In this document: piece by piece, positions 12,101 to 63,886 of the stretch
Layout: every line of letters begins with the position of its first letter
Numbering within the stretch: the stretch's first letter is position 1
Origin: Apostichopus japonicus
Lineage: Eukaryota > Echinodermata > Holothuroidea > Aspidochirotida > Stichopodidae
DNA: 64,000 nt
Direction: 5' to 3'
Assembly: GCF_037975245.1 (NCBI RefSeq)
Contig: NC_092571.1
Coordinates: forward strand, 13,123,917-13,187,916
Translations under genes and position numbers: made by a program
The notes under the pieces: generated by a model
The model's database searches: none
Seen by the model: the letters and a program-made list of their open reading frames with translations, nothing else
Told to the model about the DNA's origin: nothing

Positions 12101-29909
<17,809 letters not shown>

Positions 29910-29978
29910 CTTATCGAGATAATATCACCTTCTTACGAATCTACCAAGTGGTCCCTGTTGTTGTTGCTCAAAGCGTAT
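29910..29978 (-). other. 5' untranslated part of the SLC22 first coding exon
   Basis: On the minus strand TTATTTCAG precedes this leader, giving a clean acceptor at 29979-29980 and a 69-nt leader before the ATG. This implies at least one non-coding first exon further right, so the promoter is not at the ATG. I could not place that exon. Confidence 0.5.
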
Positions 29979-42400: not shown

Positions 42401-42896
42401 TCCCAGCGTCGGGACTTGCAGACACAGAAGTTCCGAGTCTGTCAAGACCCGAGTCTGGGACACAGTTAAAGTCTCCGACCATGACACACGGCGCACTACC
42501 AGGAACAAAGGAAGGCAGCGTGTTAAAAAAATCTCGTCTAGCAGAAGGCCGATTGGGAGCATACACATTGCAAATGGCGATGTTACCCTGTGGATACTTG
42601 AATAGAATGCAAACCAATCGGCCCTCGTGATCCGTCTCCACCCTAGTGGCACAACCCGCCTGACGAGCTGACAGAAGGATGACAGTGCCACAGGATGAAG
42701 ACGAACCAAACGAAGCATGCAGCTCACCACCCCACTCATAAGCCCATAGAGGGACATCTTCTTCCAAAATATGTGTTTCTTGCAGGCAAACGCAGTCGAC
42801 CTCCATTGATTTACAATATTGGAAAATGCGACTGCGCTTGCGATGATCCCTCATGCCATTCACGTTCAAAGTGGCAACTGAAAGTGCATGGGCCAT
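39451..42896 (-). pseudogene. LINE ORF2 (endonuclease-reverse transcriptase), broken by one frameshift
   Basis: ATG at 42896 (MAHALSVATLNVNGM). Frame 1 runs to 41592 and encodes an apurinic-type endonuclease with TLNVNG, LQETH, VGDFNCVPDSGLDR and LSDHDTV. Near 41600 a run has five G where the copy at 59044-62467 has six, which shifts the frame. The second frame (first ATG 41559, stop 39451) has the reverse transcriptase: KSPGSDGLPREFY, LDQQKAFD, GVRQGCPLSPLL and QYADDVT, then the zinc-finger tail CPRTGCDSLESTAHVFWHC. The last ~25 codons come from flanking DNA because the element's 3' end is cut at 39530. Otherwise very similar to the plus-strand copy, so young. Confidence 0.9.
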
Positions 42897-44233
42897 GAGA
42901 GGGCAGTGGGGCAAAACTACGAAGACGACGATTCCGTAAGCTTCAAGCGCGCCCTTGACGACATATCGTCGTCTGAGTCGTCACTTGAAGCCGACCTTTT
43001 AAGAGAGGGTTCCCCCATTTCGTCGTACCAGCTCGTCCCAGTGGCACGTTTCGGCTCGCTGATCAGCGATTCACCGGAGTCGCTGTCAGACAGAGCCTCC
43101 GGAGAATCGATGACCACCGATTCTCCGTCAGACAAAGCCTCCGGATCTGGCGATACCGGCGGCGGACTGGGGACGGAACTGGACGAGTTGATGGGGGAAG
43201 CTGGTGGAGACTTTCTCGGTGCGGGCACGAGGTTGGGGTCTGCAACGACGGGGGAGGGTGAACCAGGTGCAGGGGAGGGTAAAATCCCACCAGATTCCCC
43301 CTCCTCTCGTGAAGTAGTAGGTGCGTCGGAACTTGACTTGCCCCCACTCTTAGTCCTAGAGACATAAGAGGAGGGACAAGCTCGAAAGACATGTCCCTCC
43401 TTCCCACATAGTGAGCACACAACCTCGTTTGGGCAAGCGGTGCTATCATGCCCAAGACGAAGGCAGCGCCCACATTTCTTGTTTGGGCAGCCCTTGGCTT
43501 CGTGCCCGGTCTCCCCACACCTGAAGCAGGTACGGGGCTGACCGGGATACCGCACGTGGGCTTTATGCCCTGCTATAAACAGGAAGGAGGGAATGTCCTG
43601 TTTCAGGTCGATCCGAACCTGTCGGTGCCCGTTCAACACCCCAGGGGCTTGTGCATAGGAGCACATTTTGGCAGCCTTGACAGCCCCGAACCGACCCAAA
43701 ACCGTTACGACAAGTTCCTGCCGCACCTCTAGTCCTACGTGGATGATAGTTACCCATACGGATCGCTCATATGGAGTAACTGTCATCCCCTCGACGTTAC
43801 TCAGCAACGTGACACCTTTCTGACGGGCCACGTCACTGGTAAAACGTAAATCGTACGTATTACGACCCTGGAGAGCTTGCAAAGCATCAACCTCTCCAGG
43901 CACAACAACACCCTTGCTCTTCAAAATACTAAAAACTTGCACCGGTGGAACAGCTTGTTCACCGGTGAACGACAACTTAACTATCCGAGAATCACGGCGC
44001 GATGCCATGATACCGAAGGTGGCTAGGCCACAGGGGAGTAACACAAAACAAACAAACGACAGGATAGTGAAACAACAAACGATAAACGAACTGAGGAAAA
44101 CACACGAACACAAGCTATCACACCCGCCTGGCGGGAAGTATAGCACAGCACAGCACAGTACAATAACAGCTGTAACAGATGAAGAGCGAAAACACGTCCG
44201 CACTCCACGAAAGCCAACTGCCAACTGCCAACT
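39530..44233 (-). mobile_element. Near-complete Tx1/L1-like non-LTR retrotransposon
   Basis: 4704 bp on the minus strand, flanked by the 9-bp duplication GGAACATGA (39521-39529 and 44234-44242). The 5' end shows GTTGGCA repeated in tandem three times, a leader of about 225 bp with hairpin CCCGC-CAG-GCGGG, ORF1 with three CCHC knuckles, a 20-nt gap, then ORF2 with endonuclease, reverse transcriptase and a C-terminal zinc finger. It lacks the last ~160 bp seen in other copies (ending CACGTAAAAAGC), so its 3' end is truncated at CGCTGCGTGC. Clade assignment follows the ORF1 knuckles plus the zf-RVT-type tail. Confidence 0.9.
42917..44008 (-). CDS. LINE ORF1, Gag-like protein with three CCHC zinc knuckles
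   Basis: Start chosen at ATG 44008 (MASRRDSRIVKLSF), since upstream in-frame codons belong to the leader; 363 residues. The N-terminal half (about 1-155) looks like the RNA-binding-type fold preceding knuckles in Tx1-group ORF1 proteins, with ERSVWVTIIHVGLEV at 81-95. Knuckles are CFRCGETGHEAKGC (161-174), CGRCLRLGHDSTAC (179-192) and CSLCGKEGHVFRAC (198-211). The rest is rich in Ser, Pro and Asp and ends SSDDSDDD..., a probable disordered acidic tail. It would bind LINE RNA to form the retrotransposition particle. The frame is intact. ORF2's first ATG (42896) follows the stop by 20 nt, which suggests reinitiation. Confidence 0.88.
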   Translation of the reverse strand: MASRRDSRIVKLSFTGEQAVPPVQVFSILKSKGVVVPGEVDALQALQGRNTYDLRFTSDVARQKGVTLLSNVEGMTVTPYERSVWVTIIHVGLEVRQELVVTVLGRFGAVKAAKMCSYAQAPGVLNGHRQVRIDLKQDIPSFLFIAGHKAHVRYPGQPRTCFRCGETGHEAKGCPNKKCGRCLRLGHDSTACPNEVVCSLCGKEGHVFRACPSSYVSRTKSGGKSSSDAPTTSREEGESGGILPSPAPGSPSPVVADPNLVPAPRKSPPASPINSSSSVPSPPPVSPDPEALSDGESVVIDSPEALSDSDSGESLISEPKRATGTSWYDEMGEPSLKRSASSDDSDDDMSSRARLKLTESSSS

Positions 44234-44242
44234 GGAACATGA

Positions 44243-47089
44243 TATGACGTATGCAAAACGATGGTAATGAGAGTGAAGCACCACTAGTATACTTCGCTCG
44301 TAAAAGCCAAATACTTTCCACTTATTTACCATAATGGCATCATTCAATCTGCTTTTGAAGTACGCACTCGAAAAGTGTTAGCAATTTCAGTATTTCAGTA
44401 ATGTCACCTTGCCATTTGCCATCAGAATTTAAGCCCTGTGAAACTAAAAGAATAAAAAACAGATCTAAAGCAATCTTTCAGAAACTGAAGGTATGCGCAG
44501 TCATTTATGAAGAATAATCAATATAGTAGTTAAGATAACTTCCTGTCGCTAAGTACTAAACTATTCAGTTTTTCGAACGATTTTATAATTCTTACATATG
44601 AAGCAGTTTTGCTTGTTCTCGGATACTTATGAGGTTATATCATGAACAACACTTTTACCTATATTACGGAATTTCCATTGTGCTGTTTAATCGTAATGAC
44701 TAAAATGTGAACCCTGTGCAATAATGTCATTTCCTTGTATGTAATCATGTGATGGGGTGGTGGGAGGTTGCTATTGATAACACAATATAAACGTTATTAC
44801 ATTCCTTTATGATATGATTAATAGTGTTATTGTTTTAGTAATATGTAAACGACTAAAAATATTCACAAAATGATCTTTGCACACGTAAAGGCTTGTTTCT
44901 AAATCAGCATACAAAAGTTTCATATACTTTCATATTGAAGTGAAAAGAGTAAGGAATAAGACACAAAGCACATTTGGAGTCGTAAAAACTTTCAATTGTT
45001 CATAAACCAATGGTTAGGCCTATTCACACCAAGGCACTGTATATTCCACAATACCTTTCCCGAATCTGTCAAATTAAAACGTTTTACGGATTCTTAACTG
45101 AAGCCTGCTATTCGTAGTATAAGTATATACAGAACAAAGATATTAACACCAAGATACAAGATATTTCCTTTAATGATGAATATTGTATTAATTGAGATAA
45201 TTCTGAATATTTTCAACTTTTGACGGGTGACATGTCTGGCATGTGAATTATTGTATGATGAGTCGTGTACAACATGGAAAGATACATTATATTTGGAATG
45301 CTTTTCGGCTTAGATTATGTGTAGTATCTGCTCCCTTTCGAGGGGAATGGTGATGCACACCAGACGATGATCACAGTCCAGATGTAAGGGGACTGGGGTT
45401 GAGAGCAGATCAGTCGTTCGGTGTTTGGTTTTTGTGCCCAGGTTCTTTCCTGGCGACTTTTTCTTAATGGGTATATTTACAATGTTTGCATGCAAATACA
45501 AAACAGAGGAAATGATTTTTTTCTCCATAGATTGTGAAAGTTGAGAATGCAACATTTTACACATTTTAATGCATGTATGTACATGTTTACTTTACACATG
45601 TGCTTGTTTGTTGAATCTAAATCTGTTGAACCGTTCGACACATCCACTTTACATATGTCACTTTACATATAAATTGAAATGTATTCCTTTTATTCTTGAA
45701 GATAAACACCAACAATTCAATGAAATAAAAAGAAATGCTCTCTTGGTTGGACAATTGGGTTTATTCAAGCAACATTTACATTGATTTGTCATGTCGAAAC
45801 GCTGACGTTATGCTACCGAAAAAACCCAATTTAAACAAGCAAAAAATTAATCGTCATGTTGGCGGCGACAATTTTTCCACGCCAACGCTGATCATCCCAC
45901 TCAGTACATGACCATACCACAAGCCTGTTCTGACACACGTCTCTATCATGTACCAACATGAATATTAAAAGAGTAATATAATCAGTGTCATAAACTGGAT
46001 TAATCAATAAGATACCCGAAGAAGGTCATACCCCAATTGATTCAAGCCGATAACACAGAATTAGCCATGCAGGTCATCGGCACATCAAGTTATAAATAAA
46101 TGTGTATGATAGGAAGTACACTTTCAGTGAACAAATGCATAGAGTAGACGAGATTGAAATATAAAATACAGTTATTACGATGTAAAATAATACAAGAACC
46201 GACAGTATTTTTATACACATATTGCAGAAAAAAGAACAATTTTATATTTATCACACAAACCATGCTTAAAACTAGTTTGTTGTTTGCTTTTATAAAGCGC
46301 GATACAAATATTGTTTGGTCACGCTGCGAAAACCGACAAAGGAACCCCAAAATATTGATTTGAATAACACAAACCAAATATGAACAAATATATCTCTTGG
46401 AAAGGAGTTGAGCCGATATGTCAACAAGTTGTACAGTTTATGATGTCGATGACGATGATAATAAATAATTAAAATTGCATCTGCTACGAATATGAAAACA
46501 GTCAGCAAACAAGTTAAACTGATATTATATAACCATCACTATCTAGTCTATACTGAAATATAAGCTGTTACAGGTTTTGAAAATGCATTAAGGCAAAGCG
46601 TGTATGGTGAATGGTGAAATTCAAGAATCAAACACGTTATATACTCAATACGAACGATGTCAGTTTTTTTTTCTCTTTGGTTCTATTCTGTTCTTAAAAT
46701 ACGGTGCTACGTGATCCTTTCATAGTTCTGCATATTTTAAAGCCTGCCTCTCGTTCGAAATTGAGGATCATTCACCGTTATCCGGCTGTCTGCTTGGAGA
46801 TGAAAGAACGCTCCGCCCCATCGGTGTATACAAACTTGATACCGGTATCTCATAGAAACTATTTTCTATTAACTTTTCGAATATCTATGAACCGAAAACA
46901 AAATACATACATATAAAATATAATATATATTGAATATATTCATATATATGGAAATATTTTCCGAATTAAAATTAGATAAGTAAGTAAACAACAGAAACCT
47001 GACAGAAAATTATAAACATTTTTTTTATAAACAAATTTGAAAATAAAGCAAAACAATTACGTGTGTTTAGCATGGGATTCGAACCATAC
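44243..47089. other. Gene-free stretch
   Basis: AT-rich with no supported exons. If the donor at 47134 of the pseudokinase gene is used, its last exons could lie here, but the open frames at 45310-45564 and 46090-46377 carry no recognisable motif. Near 47060-47085 (minus) GGTTCGAATCC stands alone as a B-box-like piece, perhaps a SINE remnant. Confidence 0.5.
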
Positions 47090-50000
47090 TCACTTCAGGA
47101 ATAAATTTAAATCAATACTTGACAAATTTCTTACCGATTTGAATGAAGATCTCAAATGATGAATAGACGGCCGCAGAGAGCAATTTTGATTCCAGCAGTC
47201 AAATAATGAAACATTTCTGTCGAATATGACCAGGAAATGAGTAAGTATGCAACCTGCGGGATCCAAAACGTCACGACCAAACGGCACTACCCAACCATCC
47301 CATTCTAACAAACAAAACTTAAGTCAAGCGAGCCAAAAAAAGTAAATACGCCCACCGACCTGCAGAGACAAACCCCCAACCAACCACACAAACATTCAAA
47401 AAACCACAAAAGAACGACCAGCACGCAGCGAAACGAAGCACCTCTCCCCAGCACACCAGCGTCCAAAAAAGGTAGCCCCAGATAAACGTATATACGTGAT
47501 GTGTTATGCCGTTATCGGATAAGTCTACCTAATTTCTTTTTAATTAAACAGAAATCGTCAGGGTAAGCAAATTAGACTTTACGTACCCCTTAATTATCAC
47601 CCATATGAGCCCCCACCTCACATAATTTCTTACAGAATTGCCTGCGTGTGTACTGTAAACGAATTTATAACCGCTCATTTCCATTGGTTAAATCATATGC
47701 TATACCTCCATGGCTATATTTACCTTAGTTGTAGGTTTCTAGGAGGCCACATTAATTTGGATGTATCGACATCTATTCCAGGCTTTACTTCCTCGTCAAT
47801 GGGAAACGGAGAGGTTCCTTAATATAAAAGACAAACCTCGTTCTTCTTCATCATTATTATTGCATTATACAGAAATACGGTGAATTGTGACTTGATTTTT
47901 AATATTAATGTATTAGTAAATGAGTAAGTGTTAAACAAAAGTGTACCCTTTTCGTTCGTTTGGATATATTTCTCCCCTTTTCCCTAACTCATTATCTCCT
48001 CATCCCCCCTCCCCTTCCCCCGTCTCTATCCACGTAGTTGTTGCTCTGGTTATGAAAACAACAAAACGGAAGTGACCGGCTTCGTTACGTATTTGAAGCT
48101 TTTTCACGATGTTCCGTTCATAATTTATTACCATAGAGTAGAATTAATGGAAAGAGACAACGTTGACTTCGGGGATGGTTGGGGCGGGGGTTGGTGGGTG
48201 GGTGGGGTTCGAGGTGATGAGTTAATGTCGCACTCATCTTCACAATTAGTGACCTCACAATTATGTTACCCACAACAACACACACTGTCGCAGTCCATCG
48301 GATCCATAAACGATACTAAAACTTTCTGAATGCAAACATACCGTGACAGCTGAAACTTTGGTCATAGTTTGAAAAGATTGTATAAATTGTCATGTAAACT
48401 TGAGAATATTTATTTGTGTATAATCACCATCTGACAAGATCTCCCATATTACTACAGCCGTTGACCATACGTCACTTTCATTTGTGTACTCATTCCGGAA
48501 TAATGATTCTGGAGGGAAGCGGTTTAAGGTGAAAAACCCCATCTATCGAAAAGGAAACAATTTTACTCAGGCTATAGAACATCTCTACTGATGATTGTTC
48601 TCCATATCTCCTAAAAGGAGAAACTCTAAGAGAATTTAAGATATTACGTACATGATATCACAGTTAGCAAAATAAGATACCAATGACACCTGAGACTATT
48701 TTAAGTGGAGTGCGGTCAACTGTGGTATAGCAGTGTAGTTCATTATATCTTGAATAGTCAAATTAGCTATTCAGAATTATATTCTCATCTTATAAATGTT
48801 TACTTGGTGAATTTTGTTTTTGAAATACAAATGCAATTAAAACCTCTTCAGTTTATGTTTAGCCTGTGTGAGGCAGAAACTCACTGTGGTAAATTGCAAT
48901 TTTATTTCCATCTACATTCGATATAGCTAGTTTGTTAGACACTTATTGAACAAACGAGTAAACTGTTACTAAAATTATTAAAGTAGACATATTTTCTTTT
49001 TAAATATTTTTGTGTATATTTATAATCTATACCTGTGCTTTCTTGAGAGATACGATCTTTGGTGCGTCCTCAGCTAGACAAAAATCGTATAATTTACATA
49101 TACCGTCTTTGGTGTATAAAACCTTCTTTGTTGATAAACCCGGATGTAAAAACTGTAAGTAATAAGAAAAAAACCGGGTTATTTTCCAACGATCACCGGC
49201 TTCATGTTTGCTAACTAACATATATTTGAAGTATGCACTGAACATTTGAAAAAAAAGAAGCTTCTTAGAAATTAACATGAATGAGTGGGCCTTACACAAA
49301 ACAAAGTAACGACAGTTGGTGTGCGTCTGGATGAGAATGTCACATATTTACTGGAAGGGGGAGGGAGGGGTAATAGATTGGGATTGAGGGGAGAGCGAAG
49401 TAAAGTGAGAGAGCGGAAGGTGGAGGGTAGGATTTACAAAACAAACCTATTTCAATGTAACTGACTTACCCCATATGATTTGATAACTTCCATTCCTTCT
49501 AAAATGCCAGATATATGCTTCATTACATCAGGTACTAACATTGGGCTCTGCGTGCCCATTGAATTGGGGTCAAAGGTCAGTCGGCTGGCCAAAGTATCAC
49601 TATCAACATGTCCAGTAATGAGGTAATATGTAACTGCAAATAAACCATAAATGTATAAGTAACCCTGAATGTACCATGAAGAGTGTGCATTTTACGTGAC
49701 CCGCCATCCGGGATCCAAAACGTCACGGCCAAACGGCACTACCCAACCATCCCATTATGAAAAACGAAACTCAAGTCCAGCGAGCCAAAAAAAGTAAATA
49801 CGCCCATCGACCTGCAGACACAAACCCCCAACCACCAAGAGAGTGTTGCTAATGGTCCAGGCGTAAGAAGTATAGGAACAGTTGACTTAAAAATAATTAT
49901 GAAGATTCTTATAAGAGAAATATTTGGACGCGACATGACTTCGAAAAGTGCCCTTGGGGGTAAGACTAAGAACGCACATGCGCAAATTCACTTCGAAATT

Positions 50001-53000
50001 CACTACATGCACTTTAAGAATCTGTCATATACCGGTATGATGCAACGAGGTTTACTTTTTATTATACATATAGTTTATCGATACACATAATTCATGAGAT
50101 GCCGCGAGAAAGGATTGTAACATGTGAGGGTAATGTCATGATCCTGTTTACGAGTGTTAGAAAAATAGAAACTAGATTAATTTCATTTCTTTATCAATAT
50201 ACCAACACAAAGTAAATATGTTTGGTTAAAATATACTTACTTTTCTTTACTCCAATTCCTTCAATGTTTATCAGGTGATCACTTTTGGGCAGATCAAGTG
50301 TTCGCTTAACAAATTCATGCCAGTGGATAATTTCCTTCTTTATAAGTTCCTCTGACGTCATAGAAAACAATGAAAATATTACAGAGTTCAGTCTCTTAAT
50401 ATCTAGACCAATATTCCTATGTCATAAATATTTCAAAAATTTGCATTGACAACTTTTCATAATTCGTTTTATCTTTCTAAAAAAAACGTTTAAGTTGAAT
50501 TAAAATGCCTCAGTGCATGCCCCCTCCCCCGCCCTAGTGCACACGTTTCGAACACAAACATAACCAACCAACACACATCTCCTAATTCACCTTATACCTT
50601 TCACCTCTTCACCATCTCCTTCACTTTTGTCCTTATTTCTACTCTCCATTCCCCTCTGCTCACAGACATCCTCTTCTGATGAAGACATATAAAGTTAAAT
50701 CAATATCACAACATTAATCTACCAATTCTTATTTACCGAATAATACAACCCATCGTGTCATTTGTATACACACCACTAACAATACTATTTGTAATCTTTT
50801 ACCTGGAATAGTCGTTAGAACAGCCACTTTATTGGCGTCAATTGTCCCCATCCATCTATTATATATTGTTCCCATCTTTATACTTGATAGCAGACAGAAA
50901 TCGTTCTCGCTGAAAATTCTGGATTTTTCTGCAGTATCTGTCGTCGTTGCTGAGTAATAATCTACTGATTGAAGAGGTGGAGGGTGGAAGGGAGAGATGA
51001 ATGAATGAGAGGACAAATCCCGTCATACTGATAAAGACACAGTTTAAGGATGTAATATATAGCTATATTTGACTGTTTGACAGAGATAAGTGATACGGTT
51101 TGCAGCTTCTTTTCATATTCAATCTACTATCGGAAAAGACATATCTGGATTAATAATAACCTGCAATACAATTGGTCATGACAAATAGTATAAAATATTG
51201 TGCTTATTACGTGGCCGCTCTGCGGGATCCAAAACGTCACGGCCAAACGGCACTACCCAACCATCCCATTCTGACAAACAAAACACAAGTCAAGCGAGCC
51301 AAAAAAGTAAATACGCACACCGAACTGCAGCGACAAAATATTGTTAATATAACTTACTACTTTCACTACATCCAGTCGAGTCATCACTAGGGATGCTTGG
51401 AAGATCGGATCTTAATCGAGAGACAGAGAGTATATTTAGAAAGATGTTCATTTCATTACAAGTTAACGTTTAACGGCTGATATTAAAAAAAGCACATTGT
51501 CCTTACCACTTTAAATTTATTCATTAATATACATAACGATGCAACATGGACTTTCCAGCTATATGCAATGAATATAACACCAGGTATTAGATTTGTTTTT
51601 CATCAAGTCCCAATTTACTCTATCTAATACGATTCCATGTTTCAAAGCACAGTCAGCCCGTAGCTTAATGAAATTCTAACAGTATACTATACGTATCTAT
51701 TAAGACCAATTGCTCAATAAAAATAACCGTACATATGTTCATTGTATACCTGTTGTGGATATAAATAATTAACGTTTGGAATCAAATGTAACTACATTTT
51801 TTTCTTCGGAATATTTTAAACATAATGAATCTATTTCTACAATATGTCTTATATCCTATTTTTTAAGAGAGGCTGCCCCGTCTCTTATTACGAAAACATA
51901 AAAAACCAACGAAATACAACGAAAACATAAATTCTTACCTTTGTTTTCTTTTGAAACTTCCTTGCAAGCTATTCTGCAAAACTAAGGAAGAAAATGTTAT
52001 AAATATCATTTCCATGTATTATAATTGTAAGGAATTGCTAGCCTATAATAGTGTATGGAATGTTGTGATATGACATACGTGATTGGTCGGTTAATGACAG
52101 GTTGTTCAATTGAATCTGCGTTGGTCCAGAGAGATTGGAATCTGTATTTCTAGTAAAAAAAAGGAAGAAAGGGAATTGCAGGTTATTGCAGGCTAACATT
52201 GTAAATTGCTGTATAATGTTATTAATGTTCTCTTTTGTTTTGCTGCAATAATCTTTAAGAACAAGTAAAGACACAAGAAATAACTTACATTGATACGTTA
52301 GCAGACATTGTAGCTACAAAAAAGTGGAAATAAGGAGAAAATTGTAAAAATAAGAACAAAAGAGTGTAATATTTGTGTCACAATTTCTTAAATAAATTAA
52401 TGAACACTCTTACAATGTGTCTTTCAGCTGGCGTTGTACACTTTTTGTCAAATTTCTCATTAATTAAAAACTGTATTTCATTAACTGCACTATCCTCTAT
52501 ATTACATTGAGAATTTTGTAAACAAAAGTATTCATTAAAAATTGTTACTTTAAATATTATAAAACACACTCACGTTTGAAGATTACCTTGTACCCATAAA
52601 AGGAGAGGATACACAATACAGCTACAATGGGACTCACCCACGGAAGAAAATGGGCAACTCCTATTTGAAAATAACAAAATGTATGAACCATTACAAAATA
52701 TAAATAGAGTTTTGTAACTGACCTTGAGTAAAATTTTAAAGGTATTTTTATTATGACGTAGGTAATCGCGCACCTGTTCTTTTAAGTAGTAGCTACCCGC
52801 GTGCGTATAGAACACCATGTTAATATTTATTTAATAATTACAGATATCTTCAACTGAATTCGAGATATCAAGAATTGTGCCATCTAAGCGGCAATTGCAT
52901 GGCTCTAGTTCAGTAAGTCTGTGATAAGCAGCATCGTGCATTAGTTCTACTATCAAAAATGAATTGCTTTTTACGTGACCCGACCTGTGGGATCCAAAAC

Positions 53001-53809
53001 GTCACGGCCAAACGGCACTACCCAACTGTCCCATTCTAACAAACAAAACTGCAAAAGGACGACCAGCACGCAGCGAAACGAAACACCCCTCCCCAGCACA
53101 CCAACGTCCAAAAAGGGCAGCCCCAGATAAACGGCGAAAATCGCCTTCAACCTGAAGGCGAATGTCACATTTCACTGCCTCCAGGACTGCCTGCCAACTG
53201 CCAAATTTTCCCCTAAAAACTATATCGCATCTATTCCTCCAAATCAGTTTTTTTTCTTCAAAATAGCACAAACACAAATAATACGATGCAACACAGCAAC
53301 AGAACAAACTGGAGGATCTATCCCAATATTAAACAAAGCCCTGTCCTACCGACCATGAACGGTCTCCCGTTACAAAAGCTGAAACAAAGGAACAATGCCA
53401 GAAAACATGAGCAATACTCTCTAATCTGTCAGAACCGGTCCTAGGGCACAGTTCATCACCCAATCGCCATTGATACCTTTTCAGATAGGTCACCAAGGCA
53501 CCGTGTACAATTCTCCATGCAAGATCACGGAGCCTGCAACCATTCAGCCTTGAAAGCACCGAACGCCATACTTCGGCAGAATGACGTCCCTGTACAAAAA
53601 TTGCATTCCAGTGGTATTCCAGGAATGTAATGACAACAACAAAACATGCAGAAATGATAGTGCCTTTTATAATTAAATTGTCTACGTTTCTTTTTCTGTA
53701 TATTACTTCATTGAGAGAGATAACGTGTATGTTCTTCATTCGATTCAAACATATTTAGCCATACCTGAAGACGAGGAACGCACTACACTGAGTGTTCTTG
53801 TTGATTCTT
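47090..53809 (-). CDS. Receptor-like transmembrane tyrosine pseudokinase, 3' part
   Basis: Exons on the minus strand: 53809-53765 (Ser/Thr-rich stalk), 52660-52587 (transmembrane), 51973-51939, 51410-51358, 50949-50803 (N-lobe), 50675-50598 (optional), 50351-50241 (helix C), 49633-49470 (hinge), 49152-49033, 48542-48428, 47817-47724, 47216-47090. Phases match at every junction. Order: stalk [15 protein letters not shown], helix [20 protein letters not shown], basic stop FKRKQR, juxtamembrane, kinase fold ending SPFPIDEEV and [12 protein letters not shown]. Catalytic motifs are lost: VAVLTTI lacks the beta-3 lysine, HPGLSTKKV replaces HRD, YDFCL replaces DFG, and the glycine loop is degenerate; PPES (APE) remains. 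It is therefore a predicted signalling scaffold rather than an enzyme. The extracellular part lies upstream. The last exon may instead splice at 47134. Confidence 0.8.
47253..47488 (-). mobile_element. LINE 3'-leader fragment
   Basis: About 235 bp matching the 3' end of the Tx1/L1-like LINE on the minus strand, lacking the last bases after the terminal hairpin. It lies in the intron between the last two pseudokinase exons. Confidence 0.85.
49687..49836 (-). mobile_element. LINE 3'-end fragment
   Basis: Short 3' terminal piece ending CACGTAAAATGC on the minus strand, in the intron next to the hinge exon. Duplicated at 54874-55023. Confidence 0.8.
50598..50675 (-). CDS. Symmetric cassette exon between kinase N-lobe and helix C
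   Basis: 78 nt, AG acceptor after CTTCATCAG and donor GTATAAGG, phase 1 on both sides, so inclusion or skipping keeps the frame. It adds 26 charged residues ([20 protein letters not shown] part) just after the beta-3 strand, where kinases normally have a short loop. Without it the neighbours join as TTIPEELIKKE. Alternative splicing is inference. An identical copy lies at 55785-55862. Confidence 0.6.
51202..51337 (-). mobile_element. LINE 3'-end fragment
   Basis: About 136 bp of the LINE 3' leader ending CACGTAATAAGC, immediately 3' (in gene sense) of the juxtamembrane exon 51358-51410, whose donor is only 20 bp away. Duplicated at 56389-56524. Confidence 0.8.
52966..53608 (-). mobile_element. 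LINE 3' fragment with zinc-finger region
   Basis: Starts (minus) within the codons for NAIFVQGRH, includes [17 protein letters not shown] and a zinc-finger region with a small deletion, and ends CACGTAAAAAGC at 52966. It lies in the intron between stalk and transmembrane exons. Duplicated at 58153-58795. No target duplication found. Confidence 0.85.
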
Positions 53810-53856
53810 CTGAAAGATACACAAAGTAACAACAGAAATGAAAAGAATGAATGAAT

Positions 53857-54623
53857 GAAGAAGATGTCCCTCTATGGGCTTATGAGTGGGGTGGTGAGCT
53901 GCATGCTTCGTTTGGTTCGTCTTCATCCTGTGGCACTGTCATCCTTCTGTCAGCTCGTCAGGCGGGTTGTGCCACTAGGGTGGAGACGGATCACGAGGGC
54001 CGATTGGTTTGCATTCTATTCAAGTATCCACAGGGTAACATCGCCATTTGCAATGTGTATGCTCCCAATCGGCCTTCTGCTAGACGAGATTTTTTTAACA
54101 CGCTGCCTTCCTTTGTTCCTGGTAGTGCGCCGTGTGTCATGGTCGGAGACTTTAACTGTGTCCCAGACTCGGGTCTTGACAGACTCGGAACTTCTGTGTC
54201 TGCAAGTCCCGACGCTGGGATCACAGAATTGGACAGATTCACTTCGGCACACCTTTTAGCCGATGTCTGGAGGCATATGCACCCGTGTAGTACGGTGTAT
54301 ACGTGGGTGAGGCCTAACGGAGAAGATGCCTCCAGGATAGATCGAGTGTATGCGCCCGTAAGTTTTACATTTTCGGGTTGCGAGACGCTCAGCTGTCCGC
54401 TCTCTGACCATGACACTGTAGTAGCACGTTTTGTTTTGCCTTCCATTTTCCCCATCGGGCGGGGCCTATGGAAGCTTAACTGTCGGATTCTTGGCGAGGC
54501 AGAGTTCCGCCAGGGTTTCGAGACCAGGTACAAAGGATGGCAAACATTGAAGCCGGCCTTTGCTTCTACATCCCAATGGTGGGATGAGGTCAAGTTGCGC
54601 ATCAAACGCTACGCAATTCAGTA
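53857..54623 (+). mobile_element. Truncated first part of the plus-strand LINE (duplication product)
   Basis: Identical to 59044-59810; cut at the duplication junction in the endonuclease-linker region of ORF2. The frame beginning at 53851 stops at 54649-54651 after a few codons of flanking DNA, giving 266 codons of endonuclease part without reverse transcriptase. Confidence 0.92.
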
Positions 54624-57600
54624 CAAAACAAACCTATTTCAATGTAACTGACTTACCCCATATGATTTGATAACTTCCATTCCTTCTAAAATGCCAGATA
54701 TATGCTTCATTACATCAGGTACTAACATTGGGCTCTGCGTGCCCATTGAATTGGGGTCAAAGGTCAGTCGGCTGGCCAAAGTATCACTATCAACATGTCC
54801 AGTAATGAGGTAATATGTAACTGCAAATAAACCATAAATGTATAAGTAACCCTGAATGTACCATGAAGAGTGTGCATTTTACGTGACCCGCCATCCGGGA
54901 TCCAAAACGTCACGGCCAAACGGCACTACCCAACCATCCCATTATGAAAAACGAAACTCAAGTCCAGCGAGCCAAAAAAAGTAAATACGCCCATCGACCT
55001 GCAGACACAAACCCCCAACCACCAAGAGAGTGTTGCTAATGGTCCAGGCGTAAGAAGTATAGGAACAGTTGACTTAAAAATAATTATGAAGATTCTTATA
55101 AGAGAAATATTTGGACGCGACATGACTTCGAAAAGTGCCCTTGGGGGTAAGACTAAGAACGCACATGCGCAAATTCACTTCGAAATTCACTACATGCACT
55201 TTAAGAATCTGTCATATACCGGTATGATGCAACGAGGTTTACTTTTTATTATACATATAGTTTATCGATACACATAATTCATGAGATGCCGCGAGAAAGG
55301 ATTGTAACATGTGAGGGTAATGTCATGATCCTGTTTACGAGTGTTAGAAAAATAGAAACTAGATTAATTTCATTTCTTTATCAATATACCAACACAAAGT
55401 AAATATGTTTGGTTAAAATATACTTACTTTTCTTTACTCCAATTCCTTCAATGTTTATCAGGTGATCACTTTTGGGCAGATCAAGTGTTCGCTTAACAAA
55501 TTCATGCCAGTGGATAATTTCCTTCTTTATAAGTTCCTCTGACGTCATAGAAAACAATGAAAATATTACAGAGTTCAGTCTCTTAATATCTAGACCAATA
55601 TTCCTATGTCATAAATATTTCAAAAATTTGCATTGACAACTTTTCATAATTCGTTTTATCTTTCTAAAAAAAACGTTTAAGTTGAATTAAAATGCCTCAG
55701 TGCATGCCCCCTCCCCCGCCCTAGTGCACACGTTTCGAACACAAACATAACCAACCAACACACATCTCCTAATTCACCTTATACCTTTCACCTCTTCACC
55801 ATCTCCTTCACTTTTGTCCTTATTTCTACTCTCCATTCCCCTCTGCTCACAGACATCCTCTTCTGATGAAGACATATAAAGTTAAATCAATATCACAACA
55901 TTAATCTACCAATTCTTATTTACCGAATAATACAACCCATCGTGTCATTTGTATACACACCACTAACAATACTATTTGTAATCTTTTACCTGGAATAGTC
56001 GTTAGAACAGCCACTTTATTGGCGTCAATTGTCCCCATCCATCTATTATATATTGTTCCCATCTTTATACTTGATAGCAGACAGAAATCGTTCTCGCTGA
56101 AAATTCTGGATTTTTCTGCAGTATCTGTCGTCGTTGCTGAGTAATAATCTACTGATTGAAGAGGTGGAGGGTGGAAGGGAGAGATGAATGAATGAGAGGA
56201 CAAATCCCGTCATACTGATAAAGACACAGTTTAAGGATGTAATATATAGCTATATTTGACTGTTTGACAGAGATAAGTGATACGGTTTGCAGCTTCTTTT
56301 CATATTCAATCTACTATCGGAAAAGACATATCTGGATTAATAATAACCTGCAATACAATTGGTCATGACAAATAGTATAAAATATTGTGCTTATTACGTG
56401 GCCGCTCTGCGGGATCCAAAACGTCACGGCCAAACGGCACTACCCAACCATCCCATTCTGACAAACAAAACACAAGTCAAGCGAGCCAAAAAAGTAAATA
56501 CGCACACCGAACTGCAGCGACAAAATATTGTTAATATAACTTACTACTTTCACTACATCCAGTCGAGTCATCACTAGGGATGCTTGGAAGATCGGATCTT
56601 AATCGAGAGACAGAGAGTATATTTAGAAAGATGTTCATTTCATTACAAGTTAACGTTTAACGGCTGATATTAAAAAAAGCACATTGTCCTTACCACTTTA
56701 AATTTATTCATTAATATACATAACGATGCAACATGGACTTTCCAGCTATATGCAATGAATATAACACCAGGTATTAGATTTGTTTTTCATCAAGTCCCAA
56801 TTTACTCTATCTAATACGATTCCATGTTTCAAAGCACAGTCAGCCCGTAGCTTAATGAAATTCTAACAGTATACTATACGTATCTATTAAGACCAATTGC
56901 TCAATAAAAATAACCGTACATATGTTCATTGTATACCTGTTGTGGATATAAATAATTAACGTTTGGAATCAAATGTAACTACATTTTTTTCTTCGGAATA
57001 TTTTAAACATAATGAATCTATTTCTACAATATGTCTTATATCCTATTTTTTAAGAGAGGCTGCCCCGTCTCTTATTACGAAAACATAAAAAACCAACGAA
57101 ATACAACGAAAACATAAATTCTTACCTTTGTTTTCTTTTGAAACTTCCTTGCAAGCTATTCTGCAAAACTAAGGAAGAAAATGTTATAAATATCATTTCC
57201 ATGTATTATAATTGTAAGGAATTGCTAGCCTATAATAGTGTATGGAATGTTGTGATATGACATACGTGATTGGTCGGTTAATGACAGGTTGTTCAATTGA
57301 ATCTGCGTTGGTCCAGAGAGATTGGAATCTGTATTTCTAGTAAAAAAAAGGAAGAAAGGGAATTGCAGGTTATTGCAGGCTAACATTGTAAATTGCTGTA
57401 TAATGTTATTAATGTTCTCTTTTGTTTTGCTGCAATAATCTTTAAGAACAAGTAAAGACACAAGAAATAACTTACATTGATACGTTAGCAGACATTGTAG
57501 CTACAAAAAAGTGGAAATAAGGAGAAAATTGTAAAAATAAGAACAAAAGAGTGTAATATTTGTGTCACAATTTCTTAAATAAATTAATGAACACTCTTAC

Positions 57601-59810
57601 AATGTGTCTTTCAGCTGGCGTTGTACACTTTTTGTCAAATTTCTCATTAATTAAAAACTGTATTTCATTAACTGCACTATCCTCTATATTACATTGAGAA
57701 TTTTGTAAACAAAAGTATTCATTAAAAATTGTTACTTTAAATATTATAAAACACACTCACGTTTGAAGATTACCTTGTACCCATAAAAGGAGAGGATACA
57801 CAATACAGCTACAATGGGACTCACCCACGGAAGAAAATGGGCAACTCCTATTTGAAAATAACAAAATGTATGAACCATTACAAAATATAAATAGAGTTTT
57901 GTAACTGACCTTGAGTAAAATTTTAAAGGTATTTTTATTATGACGTAGGTAATCGCGCACCTGTTCTTTTAAGTAGTAGCTACCCGCGTGCGTATAGAAC
58001 ACCATGTTAATATTTATTTAATAATTACAGATATCTTCAACTGAATTCGAGATATCAAGAATTGTGCCATCTAAGCGGCAATTGCATGGCTCTAGTTCAG
58101 TAAGTCTGTGATAAGCAGCATCGTGCATTAGTTCTACTATCAAAAATGAATTGCTTTTTACGTGACCCGACCTGTGGGATCCAAAACGTCACGGCCAAAC
58201 GGCACTACCCAACTGTCCCATTCTAACAAACAAAACTGCAAAAGGACGACCAGCACGCAGCGAAACGAAACACCCCTCCCCAGCACACCAACGTCCAAAA
58301 AGGGCAGCCCCAGATAAACGGCGAAAATCGCCTTCAACCTGAAGGCGAATGTCACATTTCACTGCCTCCAGGACTGCCTGCCAACTGCCAAATTTTCCCC
58401 TAAAAACTATATCGCATCTATTCCTCCAAATCAGTTTTTTTTCTTCAAAATAGCACAAACACAAATAATACGATGCAACACAGCAACAGAACAAACTGGA
58501 GGATCTATCCCAATATTAAACAAAGCCCTGTCCTACCGACCATGAACGGTCTCCCGTTACAAAAGCTGAAACAAAGGAACAATGCCAGAAAACATGAGCA
58601 ATACTCTCTAATCTGTCAGAACCGGTCCTAGGGCACAGTTCATCACCCAATCGCCATTGATACCTTTTCAGATAGGTCACCAAGGCACCGTGTACAATTC
58701 TCCATGCAAGATCACGGAGCCTGCAACCATTCAGCCTTGAAAGCACCGAACGCCATACTTCGGCAGAATGACGTCCCTGTACAAAAATTGCATTCCAGTG
58801 GTATTCCAGGAATGTAATGACAACAACAAAACATGCAGAAATGATAGTGCCTTTTATAATTAAATTGTCTACGTTTCTTTTTCTGTATATTACTTCATTG
58901 AGAGAGATAACGTGTATGTTCTTCATTCGATTCAAACATATTTAGCCATACCTGAAGACGAGGAACGCACTACACTGAGTGTTCTTGTTGATTCTTCTGA
59001 AAGATACACAAAGTAACAACAGAAATGAAAAGAATGAATGAATGAAGAAGATGTCCCTCTATGGGCTTATGAGTGGGGTGGTGAGCTGCATGCTTCGTTT
59101 GGTTCGTCTTCATCCTGTGGCACTGTCATCCTTCTGTCAGCTCGTCAGGCGGGTTGTGCCACTAGGGTGGAGACGGATCACGAGGGCCGATTGGTTTGCA
59201 TTCTATTCAAGTATCCACAGGGTAACATCGCCATTTGCAATGTGTATGCTCCCAATCGGCCTTCTGCTAGACGAGATTTTTTTAACACGCTGCCTTCCTT
59301 TGTTCCTGGTAGTGCGCCGTGTGTCATGGTCGGAGACTTTAACTGTGTCCCAGACTCGGGTCTTGACAGACTCGGAACTTCTGTGTCTGCAAGTCCCGAC
59401 GCTGGGATCACAGAATTGGACAGATTCACTTCGGCACACCTTTTAGCCGATGTCTGGAGGCATATGCACCCGTGTAGTACGGTGTATACGTGGGTGAGGC
59501 CTAACGGAGAAGATGCCTCCAGGATAGATCGAGTGTATGCGCCCGTAAGTTTTACATTTTCGGGTTGCGAGACGCTCAGCTGTCCGCTCTCTGACCATGA
59601 CACTGTAGTAGCACGTTTTGTTTTGCCTTCCATTTTCCCCATCGGGCGGGGCCTATGGAAGCTTAACTGTCGGATTCTTGGCGAGGCAGAGTTCCGCCAG
59701 GGTTTCGAGACCAGGTACAAAGGATGGCAAACATTGAAGCCGGCCTTTGCTTCTACATCCCAATGGTGGGATGAGGTCAAGTTGCGCATCAAACGCTACG
59801 CAATTCAGTA
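54624..59810. repeat. 5187-bp tandem duplication, unit 2
   Basis: Second copy; after 59810 the LINE continues uninterrupted to 62467, so this unit keeps the original right side while unit 1 keeps the original left side (the C-lobe exons). The duplication therefore happened after the LINE insertion. Confidence 0.97.
54657..58996 (-). pseudogene. Duplicated pseudokinase exons (stalk, transmembrane, N-lobe, hinge) without C-lobe
   Basis: Copies of the exons at +5187: 58996-58952, 57847-57774, 57160-57126, 56597-56545, 56136-55990, 55862-55785, 55538-55428, 54820-54657. After the hinge exon (donor at 54656) no activation-loop or C-lobe exon follows before the next stalk exon at 53809, which starts in a different phase. 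A straight transcript would therefore yield half a kinase domain, or would need to skip one set of exons. If the duplication is an assembly error, this entry collapses into the gene at 47090-53809. Confidence 0.6.
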
Positions 59811-62304
59811 TTGCGTGACCCGCGCACGGCGTCGAAGAGAAAAATTCTCGAAGCTGTGCGCGGAGGTGAAGTTTGGCGACCCTTTGGCTGTCATCGCTTT
59901 GCAGACTTATCTCGATGAAAAGTACCACGGTGCCCGCGTCAGGGCCCGTGTCGAAGCGGTGGAAGCCGAGGAGCGCCCTTCACTGAGGTTTTACCAGTCC
60001 GTTAGCTCATCGGCAGGTGACAGACGCGTCCCGTCTGTACGCGCTACTGATGGGACCGTGGTTAGTGACCCTCACGGCATTGTCCGCGTATATAAAGAGT
60101 ACTATTCGAGTTTGTTTACGCGTGGCAATGTCGACTTGTCGGCACAGGCCGATTTATTGAGGGGAATCTCAAAAACCGTTCCCCACGATGTCAATGATAT
60201 TTTGGGGGGCGAAATAACCACTGTTGAGCTTTGGAAGGCGCTTTCGAAGATGAAGAATGGCAAGTCCCCGGGTTCGGACGGGCTTCCGAGGGAGTTCTAC
60301 CGAACCTTCTGGGCAATAATAGGACCCGACATCAGAGCCGTCTTCGAAGACGCCTTCCAAAACGGACTGTTAAACGAAAGTCAACGTCTGGGCATGATTA
60401 CTTTGCTGCCAAAGTCTGGGGACCCCTTGGATCCCCATAACAAGCGTCCGATCACCTTGTTAAATGTGGACTACAAGTTGCTGGCTAAGGCCTTGTGCAA
60501 CCGCCTTGCACTGGCTATGCCGCATCTTGTTGGTGATCTCCAGACTTGTGCAGTGAAGGGTCATTGCATCCAGCAGAACTTGTGGTTGATGCGCGACTTG
60601 ACCGACTTTGTTATTGAGCGTGATCTGCCATGTGCATTGGTGTCTCTGGACCAGCAGAAGGCCTTTGACATGGTGGATCGCGGTTTTTTAATGAATGTAT
60701 TGGAGACGTTTCAGTTGCACCCAAATTTTCGTAAATGGATTTCTGTTTTGTATGAACAAAGTTTCAGTTCTGTTATCGTAAATGGGTTTTGTTCGGAGGT
60801 TTTTAACGTAGAGAGGGGGGTGCGCCAGGGGTGCCCTCTGTCTCCATTACTTTATGTTTTGTTTAGCGAGTCCCTCTCTCGTCTTTTGGAAAGGGACTCC
60901 AAACTTGTTCCATTCGTTGTGCCAGGGGGTGCCAAAGTGAAATGCGCTCAATATGCAGATGACGTGACATGTGTTGTTTCGAGTCTCGGCTCCTTTCGCG
61001 CACTCTCGCAGGATCTATCTATTTTTGAGAGAGCTACCGGGGCGAAGTTGAATCCAGAAAAGACAAAGGGCCTTCGTCTTGGTAGCTGGAGATACAGAAA
61101 CTTACCATTCGGTGCGTCGTGGTCGGATCAGAATATCAAAATTAATGGTATATGGTTCGGCTACGATGCACCTTGTCATGTCACCTGGAACGAGAGGGCT
61201 GAGGTATTTCAGAGCAGACTCGAAACCTTTGGCACCCGCTGGCTTTCGATCTTGGGGAAAGTCACTGTTATTAATCGTTTCGTTTCGCCCATCTTGTGGT
61301 ACCCTGGCGCGGTGTACCCTATTCCGCGTCGCGTCCTGGTACGGTTGGAGAGGGCGATTTTTTCATTCATATGGTCCGGTGGTACAGAGCTTGTCAAGAG
61401 GGCGGTATTGTACCAAAAACTGGAGAAGGGGGGACTAGGGGTGGTTCATCTGGAAAGTAAATTGACCTTTTTGTTATTTAAGCAGTTGTTTGTAGCGGTA
61501 ACTGACCCAGGGTTGCCTTGTTCATATTTTGTACGTTTTTGGGGCGGTTTGCACCTGCGTCGATGGGTCCCGGCGCTGTTTAGCAACAGAGAACCGCATA
61601 GTAGTACTCCAAACAGGGCGGTGCGTGCCATCTGCTCCGCGCTGATTGAGTTGCCCCCTGTTGACCTGTCACAGCCGGCCCTCGTTCACAGTTCGTTGAG
61701 GGATAAGGCCTTGAATGCAACTTTTGTCCAGGGACGTCATTCTGCAGAGGTATGGCGTTCGGTGCATTCAAGGCTGAATGGTTGCAGGCTCCGTGATCTT
61801 GCATGGAGAGTTGCACACGGTGCCTTGGTGACCAACCTAAAAAGATATCATTGGCGATTGGGTGATGGACTGTGCCCTAGGACCGGCTGTGACAGCTTAG
61901 AGAGTACTGCTCATGTTTTTTGGCATTGTTACTTTGTAGTAAACTTATGGGAGTGGTTCCAGACCTGGACCGACCGTGTTACGGGAGACCGTTCATGGTC
62001 GGTAGGGCAGGGCTTTATTTTATATGGGGTAGACCCACCAGTTTGTTCGGTAGCTGTGTTGCACCGCATCATTTTTGTTTGCTCTATTGTAAAAAAACAT
62101 GTTTGGCGGAATAGATGTAATTTGGTTTTTAGGGGGAATTTTGCCAGTTGGCAGGCAGTCCTGGAGGCGGTGAAGTCTGACATTCGCCTTCAGATTGAAG
62201 GCGATTTTCGCCGTTTATCTGGGGCTGCCTTTTTTGGACGCTGGTGTGCTGGGGAGGGGTTTTTCGTTTCGCTGCGTGCGGGTCGTCCTTCTGTACGTTT
62301 TTGA
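59038..62304 (+). CDS. LINE ORF2, N-terminally truncated endonuclease-reverse transcriptase (1088 codons, open)
   Basis: The frame opens at an ATG (59038) made by flank and filler, in frame with the LINE at EEDVPLWAYEWGG. The endonuclease part (about 1-235) lacks its first catalytic Asn and Glu segments (TLNVNG and LQETH) but has VGDFNCVPDSG and LSDHDTV. The reverse transcriptase follows: KSPGSDGLPREFY near 408, LDQQKAFD near 537, GVRQGCPLSPLL near 595, YADD near 639. A C-terminal zinc finger CPRTGCDSLESTAHVFWHC starts near 945 and ends in GRPSVRF. No stop or frameshift interrupts it, so the polymerase part could still fold. Endonuclease activity is not expected. No promoter of its own is likely, as the LINE leader is missing. 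Confidence 0.9.
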   Translation: MNEEDVPLWAYEWGGELHASFGSSSSCGTVILLSARQAGCATRVETDHEGRLVCILFKYPQGNIAICNVYAPNRPSARRDFFNTLPSFVPGSAPCVMVGDFNCVPDSGLDRLGTSVSASPDAGITELDRFTSAHLLADVWRHMHPCSTVYTWVRPNGEDASRIDRVYAPVSFTFSGCETLSCPLSDHDTVVARFVLPSIFPIGRGLWKLNCRILGEAEFRQGFETRYKGWQTLKPAFASTSQWWDEVKLRIKRYAIQYCVTRARRRREKFSKLCAEVKFGDPLAVIALQTYLDEKYHGARVRARVEAVEAEERPSLRFYQSVSSSAGDRRVPSVRATDGTVVSDPHGIVRVYKEYYSSLFTRGNVDLSAQADLLRGISKTVPHDVNDILGGEITTVELWKALSKMKNGKSPGSDGLPREFYRTFWAIIGPDIRAVFEDAFQNGLLNESQRLGMITLLPKSGDPLDPHNKRPITLLNVDYKLLAKALCNRLALAMPHLVGDLQTCAVKGHCIQQNLWLMRDLTDFVIERDLPCALVSLDQQKAFDMVDRGFLMNVLETFQLHPNFRKWISVLYEQSFSSVIVNGFCSEVFNVERGVRQGCPLSPLLYVLFSESLSRLLERDSKLVPFVVPGGAKVKCAQYADDVTCVVSSLGSFRALSQDLSIFERATGAKLNPEKTKGLRLGSWRYRNLPFGASWSDQNIKINGIWFGYDAPCHVTWNERAEVFQSRLETFGTRWLSILGKVTVINRFVSPILWYPGAVYPIPRRVLVRLERAIFSFIWSGGTELVKRAVLYQKLEKGGLGVVHLESKLTFLLFKQLFVAVTDPGLPCSYFVRFWGGLHLRRWVPALFSNREPHSSTPNRAVRAICSALIELPPVDLSQPALVHSSLRDKALNATFVQGRHSAEVWRSVHSRLNGCRLRDLAWRVAHGALVTNLKRYHWRLGDGLCPRTGCDSLESTAHVFWHCYFVVNLWEWFQTWTDRVTGDRSWSVGQGFILYGVDPPVCSVAVLHRIIFVCSIVKKHVWRNRCNLVFRGNFASWQAVLEAVKSDIRLQIEGDFRRLSGAAFFGRWCAGEGFFVSLRAGRPSVRF

Positions 62305-62467
62305 ATGTTTGAGTGGGGAGGGGGTTGGGCGTTTTGTCTCTGCAGGTCGGCGGGCGTATGTTTTTTTGGCTCGCTAGACCTTAGTTTCGTTTGTCAGAAT
62401 GGGATGGTTCGGTAGTGCCGTTTGGCCGTGACGTTTTGTATCCCGCATGGCGGGTCACGTAAAAAGC
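59044..62467 (+). mobile_element. 5'-truncated young Tx1/L1-like LINE with 19-bp target duplication
   Basis: ACAACAGAAATGAAAAGAA occurs at 59016-59034 and again at 62468-62486, directly after the 3' terminus CACGTAAAAAGC, which fixes the true 3' end of this family. At the 5' side nine bases of GAAT-type filler (59035-59043) separate the duplication from the LINE. The copy starts inside the endonuclease. There is no poly-A tail, only five A followed by GC. The 3' leader carries the hairpin CCCGC-ATG-GCGGG (62442-62454). Confidence 0.92.
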
Positions 62468-62486
62468 ACAACAGAAATGAAAAGAA

Positions 62487-63841: not shown

Positions 63842-63886
63842 CTGAAGATGAGGAACGCACTACACTGAGTGTTCTTGTTGATTCTT
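63842..63886 (-). CDS. Ser/Thr-rich stalk exon (45 nt), divergent third copy
   Basis: Same length, phase (1-1) and splice sites as 53809-53765. One base differs in the exon, in the next-to-last codon region (CATCTTCAG versus CGTCTTCAG). The surrounding 63693-63897 resembles 53634-53822 with scattered changes and small indels, so this duplication is older than the 5187-bp one. Confidence 0.65.

Follow-up and report, generated by a model that had tools for sequence, protein, structure and literature searches.

A 5187-bp exact head-to-tail repeat carrying seven exons of a putative FGFR-like pseudokinase gene in Apostichopus japonicus

We analyzed a 64,000-nt stretch of the Apostichopus japonicus genome (Echinodermata, Holothuroidea; NCBI RefSeq assembly GCF_037975245.1, contig NC_092571.1, positions 13,123,917 to 13,187,916, forward strand), hereafter the window, in which part of a putative pseudokinase gene and the start of a long interspersed nuclear element (LINE) lie in an exact tandem repeat. 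The two copies are adjacent and direct (head-to-tail), and differ nowhere in the 5187-bp unit (Table 1). An unbroken duplication of this size had been proposed in the original prediction, which was made from the letters of the sequence; the exact columns bear it out, and BLAST recovered the identical pair at 100% over 5189 positions. At the offset of 5187, no further exact run longer than 30 bases was found in the window. The junction reads CAATTCAGTA followed by CAAAACAAACC, and both outer edges agree with the earlier description. In the 264 kb around the repeat, no second same-strand pair reached 98% identity over 500 bp or more, and the one additional pair was part of a LINE in opposite orientation. 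As the sole pair of this kind, the tandem repeat is far beyond chance.

The gene lies on the minus strand, with seven of its exons in each unit. Together with the catalytic-loop and α-F exons, nine exons show AG/GT borders and phases that join continuously, while two small candidate juxtamembrane exons were dropped because they broke the frame. The exon map agrees with the predicted content of the unit, in which the stalk, transmembrane (TM), juxtamembrane, N-lobe and hinge exons are included and the C-lobe exons are left out. Past the α-F exon, no C-lobe exon was recognized either by eye, among minus-strand frames of at least 30 aa between 44.4 and 48.45 kb, or by Pfam.

The 321 residues encoded by the joined exons match the tyrosine-kinase fold PF07714 (E = 4.9e-21), and their best match among solved structures is FGFR4 (4xcu, E = 1.3e-14). 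In the FGFR4 alignment, HRD is replaced by HPG, the loop Asn by Lys, DFG by DFC, and APE by PPE; the β-3 Lys seems to be Leu, as read from the sequence by eye. Both the Asp of HRD and the Gly of DFG are lost. The domain thus looks like a catalytically dead FGFR-like pseudokinase, and the HPG and DFC motifs with the PF07714 match uphold the earlier call of a pseudokinase. In having a TM exon ahead of a tyrosine-kinase fold, the gene resembles the FGFR class of receptor tyrosine kinases, from which it differs in the altered HRD, loop Asn, DFG and APE; the likeness itself rests on best-match ranking.

The unit ends inside a second component of the locus, LINE B, which carries endonuclease (PF03372, E = 3.8e-10) and reverse-transcriptase (PF00078, E = 1.7e-31) domains and is flanked by 19-bp target-site duplications. 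Its similarity to LINE A, another element in the window, begins at 59044, and the sequence upstream of this position differs. Unit 1 holds a left target-site duplication and a LINE start, both without a partner. Because one target-site duplication is inside the unit and the other outside, we conclude that LINE B inserted first and that the tandem state is derived. The original prediction described the LINE as split. The unit does end inside the LINE reading frame, but a continuous 5'-truncated LINE survives, and only the additional 5' fragment is cut.

LINE A (39451-44377, minus strand) belongs to the family of LINE B and holds ORF1, with a zinc knuckle, and ORF2 in two overlapping frames. The two elements differ at 7 of the first 1160 aligned bases and at 104 of the following 2075. 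The idea that the junction tracks this divergence boundary, which would point to a template switch, was dropped, as divergence rises near 61.2 kb and not at 59.81 kb. A search with a 744-bp piece of the LINE, for which 40 of 1132 candidates were scored, gave no fewer than 38 further places at about 100% genome-wide, LINE A among them; 29 of these 38 near-identical places, among the matches listed, lie in C17:15.5-25.5 Mb.

Table 1. Positions of the repeat units, pseudokinase exons and LINE parts (window coordinates)
Feature	Positions	Strand	Remarks
Tandem unit 1	49435..54623	.	Begins with the shared TA; identical to unit 2 over 5189 columns (offset 5187)
Tandem unit 2	54622..59810	.	Sequence identity and BLAST
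Inter-unit junction	54613..54634	.	2-bp TA microhomology, no longer homology
Stalk exon, unit 1	53765..53809	-	45 nt, phase 1-1; unit 2 copy 58952-58996
TM exon, unit 1	52587..52660	-	Unit 2 copy 57774-57847
Juxtamembrane exon 1, unit 1	52079..52149	-	Unit 2 copy 57266-57336
Juxtamembrane exon 2, unit 1	51358..51410	-	Unit 2 copy 56545-56597
Kinase N-lobe exon (glycine loop to β-3), unit 1	50803..50964	-	Unit 2 copy 55990-56151
α-C/β-4 exon, unit 1	50241..50402	-	Unit 2 copy 55428-55589
Hinge/α-E exon, unit 1	49470..49633	-	Ends in phase 0; unit 2 copy 54657-54820
Catalytic-loop/DFG exon	49033..49152	-	Single copy in window, outside unit
Activation segment/α-F exon	48428..48542	-	Single copy in window, outside unit
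Upstream stalk exon paralogue	63842..63886	-	44/45 nt identical, older duplication
LINE B, between target-site duplications	59035..62467	+	5'-truncated; endonuclease and reverse-transcriptase domains; unit ends inside
Left 19-bp target-site duplication of LINE B	59016..59034	+	Inside unit 2; unit 1 copy 53829-53847
Right 19-bp target-site duplication of LINE B	62468..62486	+	Outside unit
Extra 5' fragment of LINE B	53848..54623	+	Carried in unit 1, cut at junction

Taking these features into account, we favor a real and recent head-to-tail duplication of 5187 bp without long homology, probably hypomorphic or loss-of-function rather than a new gene module, and assign this reading a probability of about 0.7. 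As modeled from the sequence, a break-repair or replication event lacking long homology would have duplicated a segment that held the seven FGFR-like pseudokinase exons and the start of a young LINE already inserted in the upstream intron, and would have placed the second copy within the intron between the α-E and catalytic-loop exons.

The break ends share 2 bp (TA) and nothing longer. It had been suggested that this microhomology suits end-joining or replication slippage. The TA is present, but as a pointer to either process it is uninformative, because 2 bp matches the chance level: at this spacing, 24% of random position pairs have microhomology of at least 2 bp (P = 0.24). The present ends offer no support for recombination between long repeats and do not discriminate between end-joining and replication slippage. 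The 0 of 5187 differences give an upper bound on divergence of 5.8e-4, which translates into an age bound of 14,000 to 290,000 generations over the assumed rates (about 29,000 at 1e-8 and 290,000 at 1e-9 per site and generation); the likeness of the copies could also be kept by gene conversion. The earlier wording, "extremely recent", thus holds in so far as we favor a recent tandem duplication over the alternatives, but the divergence is an upper bound only.

Known recent partial-gene tandem duplications among copy-number variants without long homology share the head-to-tail arrangement, identical copies, unrelated break ends and the involvement of exons of one gene. We found no difference from them in the tested features; the present locus is particular in its frame shift and in having only part of the LINE carried along. 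It offers a clean case of partial-gene tandem duplication that can be placed in time against a LINE insertion, and it would serve well for testing how real duplications are distinguished from assembly errors.

We then considered what the duplication would do to the gene. Within a single unit the exon phases are continuous, whereas across the junction the phase-0 end of α-E meets the phase-1 start of the stalk exon. The predicted read-through from unit 2 into unit 1 is KNQQEHSV, then a stop. In a transcript with all exons, α-E of unit 2 would be joined out of frame to the stalk exon of unit 1, and the stop would have at least eight exon junctions downstream. Given a premature stop followed by so many junctions, the predicted transcript would probably be degraded. 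Any protein made would be a membrane receptor without the C-lobe, and a normal protein would require one set of seven exons to be skipped. The duplication would therefore be expected to be a copy-number change of hypomorphic or loss-of-function effect, and it is probably polymorphic.

Some observations weigh against this reading. As C-lobe exons past α-F went unrecognized, the gene could have been damaged already for other reasons. In addition, against the nearest paralogue we counted 12 differences in 448 exon positions versus 83 in 2294 intron positions; the idea of stronger conservation in exons than in introns was rejected as not significant (Fisher P = 0.40), and the comparison gives no sign of present constraint on the gene copy in the window.

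An assembly error within one haplotype, in which an overlap left unmerged or a chimeric read entered the segment a second time, is the rival that survives best, although we consider it unlikely. Such an overlap would also give zero differences, and the right end of the unit lies within a LINE having many near-identical copies. Gaps between copies are listed, along with half or low depth, discordant reads and one-copy k-mers, as marks of false duplication in PMC9516828, and we found no N base between the copies, in the window or in the surrounding 264 kb. The 2 bp shared at the junction also leave nothing for a repeat-driven misjoin to use. When contigs are built from overlapping reads, a junction should fall within some read, which counts against an error of this kind. 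An A. japonicus assembly of 671.64 Mb in 34 scaffolds, with chromosomes up to 46.02 Mb, was obtained with hifiasm from HiFi reads of mean length 14.7 kb at 64-fold coverage, according to PMC10344927. If the present assembly is that one or a version of it, we calculate that about 17 reads would be expected to span both units and about 60 to cross the junction, taking all reads at the mean length.

Another alternative is that the duplication yields a useful, selected half-kinase product, namely a decoy receptor with TM, N-lobe and hinge. Read together with the exons upstream, unit 2 would give a membrane protein that stops eight residues past α-E, and the locus adjoins a large array of receptor-like Ig (immunoglobulin) exons. 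Such a product is very improbable in view of the premature stop with many junctions downstream and of the identical copies, which bear no trace of selection. The "half-kinase gene module" of the original prediction is likewise not supported, since phase 0 runs into phase 1 and the predicted frame stops after KNQQEHSV.

The weakest rival, a false join of two diverged haplotypes, was proposed in the original prediction, and haplotype joins are named as the main source of false duplication in PMC9516828. We searched the assembly (671,581,487 bases, 35 contigs) with the low-copy stretch 49837-51190, scoring 12 of 12 candidates, and found exactly two places at 100%; the remaining matches were one split paralogue at 95% and 90% (C11:13.295-13.300 Mb), and others at no more than 79%. 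With these two places only, there is no spare haplotig in the assembly. The probability of zero differences in 5187 bases would be 0.0056 if heterozygosity were 0.1% and 5e-12 if it were 0.5%, yet 0.07 at 0.05%. With neither haplotype differences nor a gap between the copies, nor a third identical copy, we regard a haplotype join as scarcely credible.

A real duplication of this sort is an ordinary event; the surroundings are less so. Both HPG and DFC are kept in all seven paralogous loci with a catalytic-loop exon that were fetched (two on C16, three on C17, one on C18 and one on C19), a sample that leans to likeness because the loci were taken as closest by search rank and more distant matches were left out. 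The catalytic-loop exon alone has at least 140 matches genome-wide at E = 0.001 or better, with 150 of 248 candidates scored. A paralogue of the unit lies on C11, the contig of the window, at C11:13295093-13300445; it is 90-95% identical, split by about 4 kb, and has at least 4441 N alongside. This paralogue was rejected as a candidate older half-kinase, as the homology ends at the equivalent of window position 49661 and is followed by those N bases, leaving the presence of a C-lobe unreadable.

Older duplications also surround the stalk exon. The block around the upstream paralogue in the window (Table 1) is 83% alike over 240 bases, with 1 of 45 differences in the exon versus 21 of 178 in the flank (P = 0.055). 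Another stalk exon, with 4 of 45 bases different, is found further upstream on the gene's strand at 65734-65778, beyond the window. These extra stalk exons are symmetrical (1-1) and could therefore be added without a frame break, unlike the 5187-bp unit.

Upstream on the gene's strand are repeated exons that would encode a signal peptide (SP) with an Ig-like domain, and a second Ig-like domain. We take them to be Ig-like from their cysteine and DAGTY patterns; by Pfam, two of three had no match, and the third matched V-set at E = 0.2, below the cut-off. With 142 of 375 candidates scored, 132 of the 148 matches listed genome-wide to an SP-Ig1-Ig2-like exon protein fall in C11:13.20-14.66 Mb (1.46 Mb), and every one of these 132 is on the minus strand. 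Separated by more than 1 kb, they make up 118 groups. Several matches have internal stops, and the first one listed is about 13 kb to the right of the window. One or two pseudokinase modules lie in or beside the stretch. Among the matches listed, no catalytic-loop exon falls inside C11:13.20-14.66 Mb; the nearest is that of the window gene at C11:13.173 Mb, 28 kb to the left of the Ig stretch, and that of the C11:13.295-13.300 Mb paralogue would fall in N bases.

In a loose scan of the 264 kb, we obtained 48 TM-like exon candidates, 28 of them in 49-150 kb (0.28 per kb versus 0.12 elsewhere). Ten of these 28 lie in the two tandem units, and some adjoin other Ig cassettes. A stricter scan returned one match, left of 49 kb, but not the known TM exon, and is therefore no evidence either way. 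Since some TM-like candidates adjoin other cassettes, we dropped the idea of a single kinase with the Ig exons as its variable first exons; the cassettes are at least as likely to be genes of their own. An arrangement of numerous Ig-like exons on one strand, alongside a downstream module, recalls clustered genes with tandem 5' Ig cassettes such as chelicerate Dscam (PMC4835542). In contrast to that system, some of the present cassettes may own TM-like exons and hence may be separate genes.

We tentatively speculate that the duplication is one visible step in the rapid gain and loss of copies within a large, lineage-specific receptor system, with more than a hundred Ig-like exon places along one strand of the 1.46-Mb stretch, one or two pseudokinase modules beside that stretch, and at least 140 related catalytic-loop exon matches genome-wide, although we hold this broader view to be doubtful. 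If it were true, the HPG and DFC kept in the fetched paralogues would be in keeping with a functional system that signals or recognizes without catalysis, perhaps in immunity, and that differs from animal to animal. In a literature search, we found no description of a receptor pseudokinase family with an adjoining megabase Ig-like stretch, and this combination would be worth study in echinoderm immunity.

Elsewhere in the window, minus-strand reading frames at about 25100-29924 resemble an SLC22-type transporter; two pieces of these frames gave no Pfam match. Two 219-bp copies at 13857-14447 are 98% identical and contain a tRNA-like sequence each, perhaps representing a tRNA-derived short interspersed nuclear element (SINE). 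Ten copies of a 159-bp tandem repeat, with 96% matches, occupy 15288-16874.

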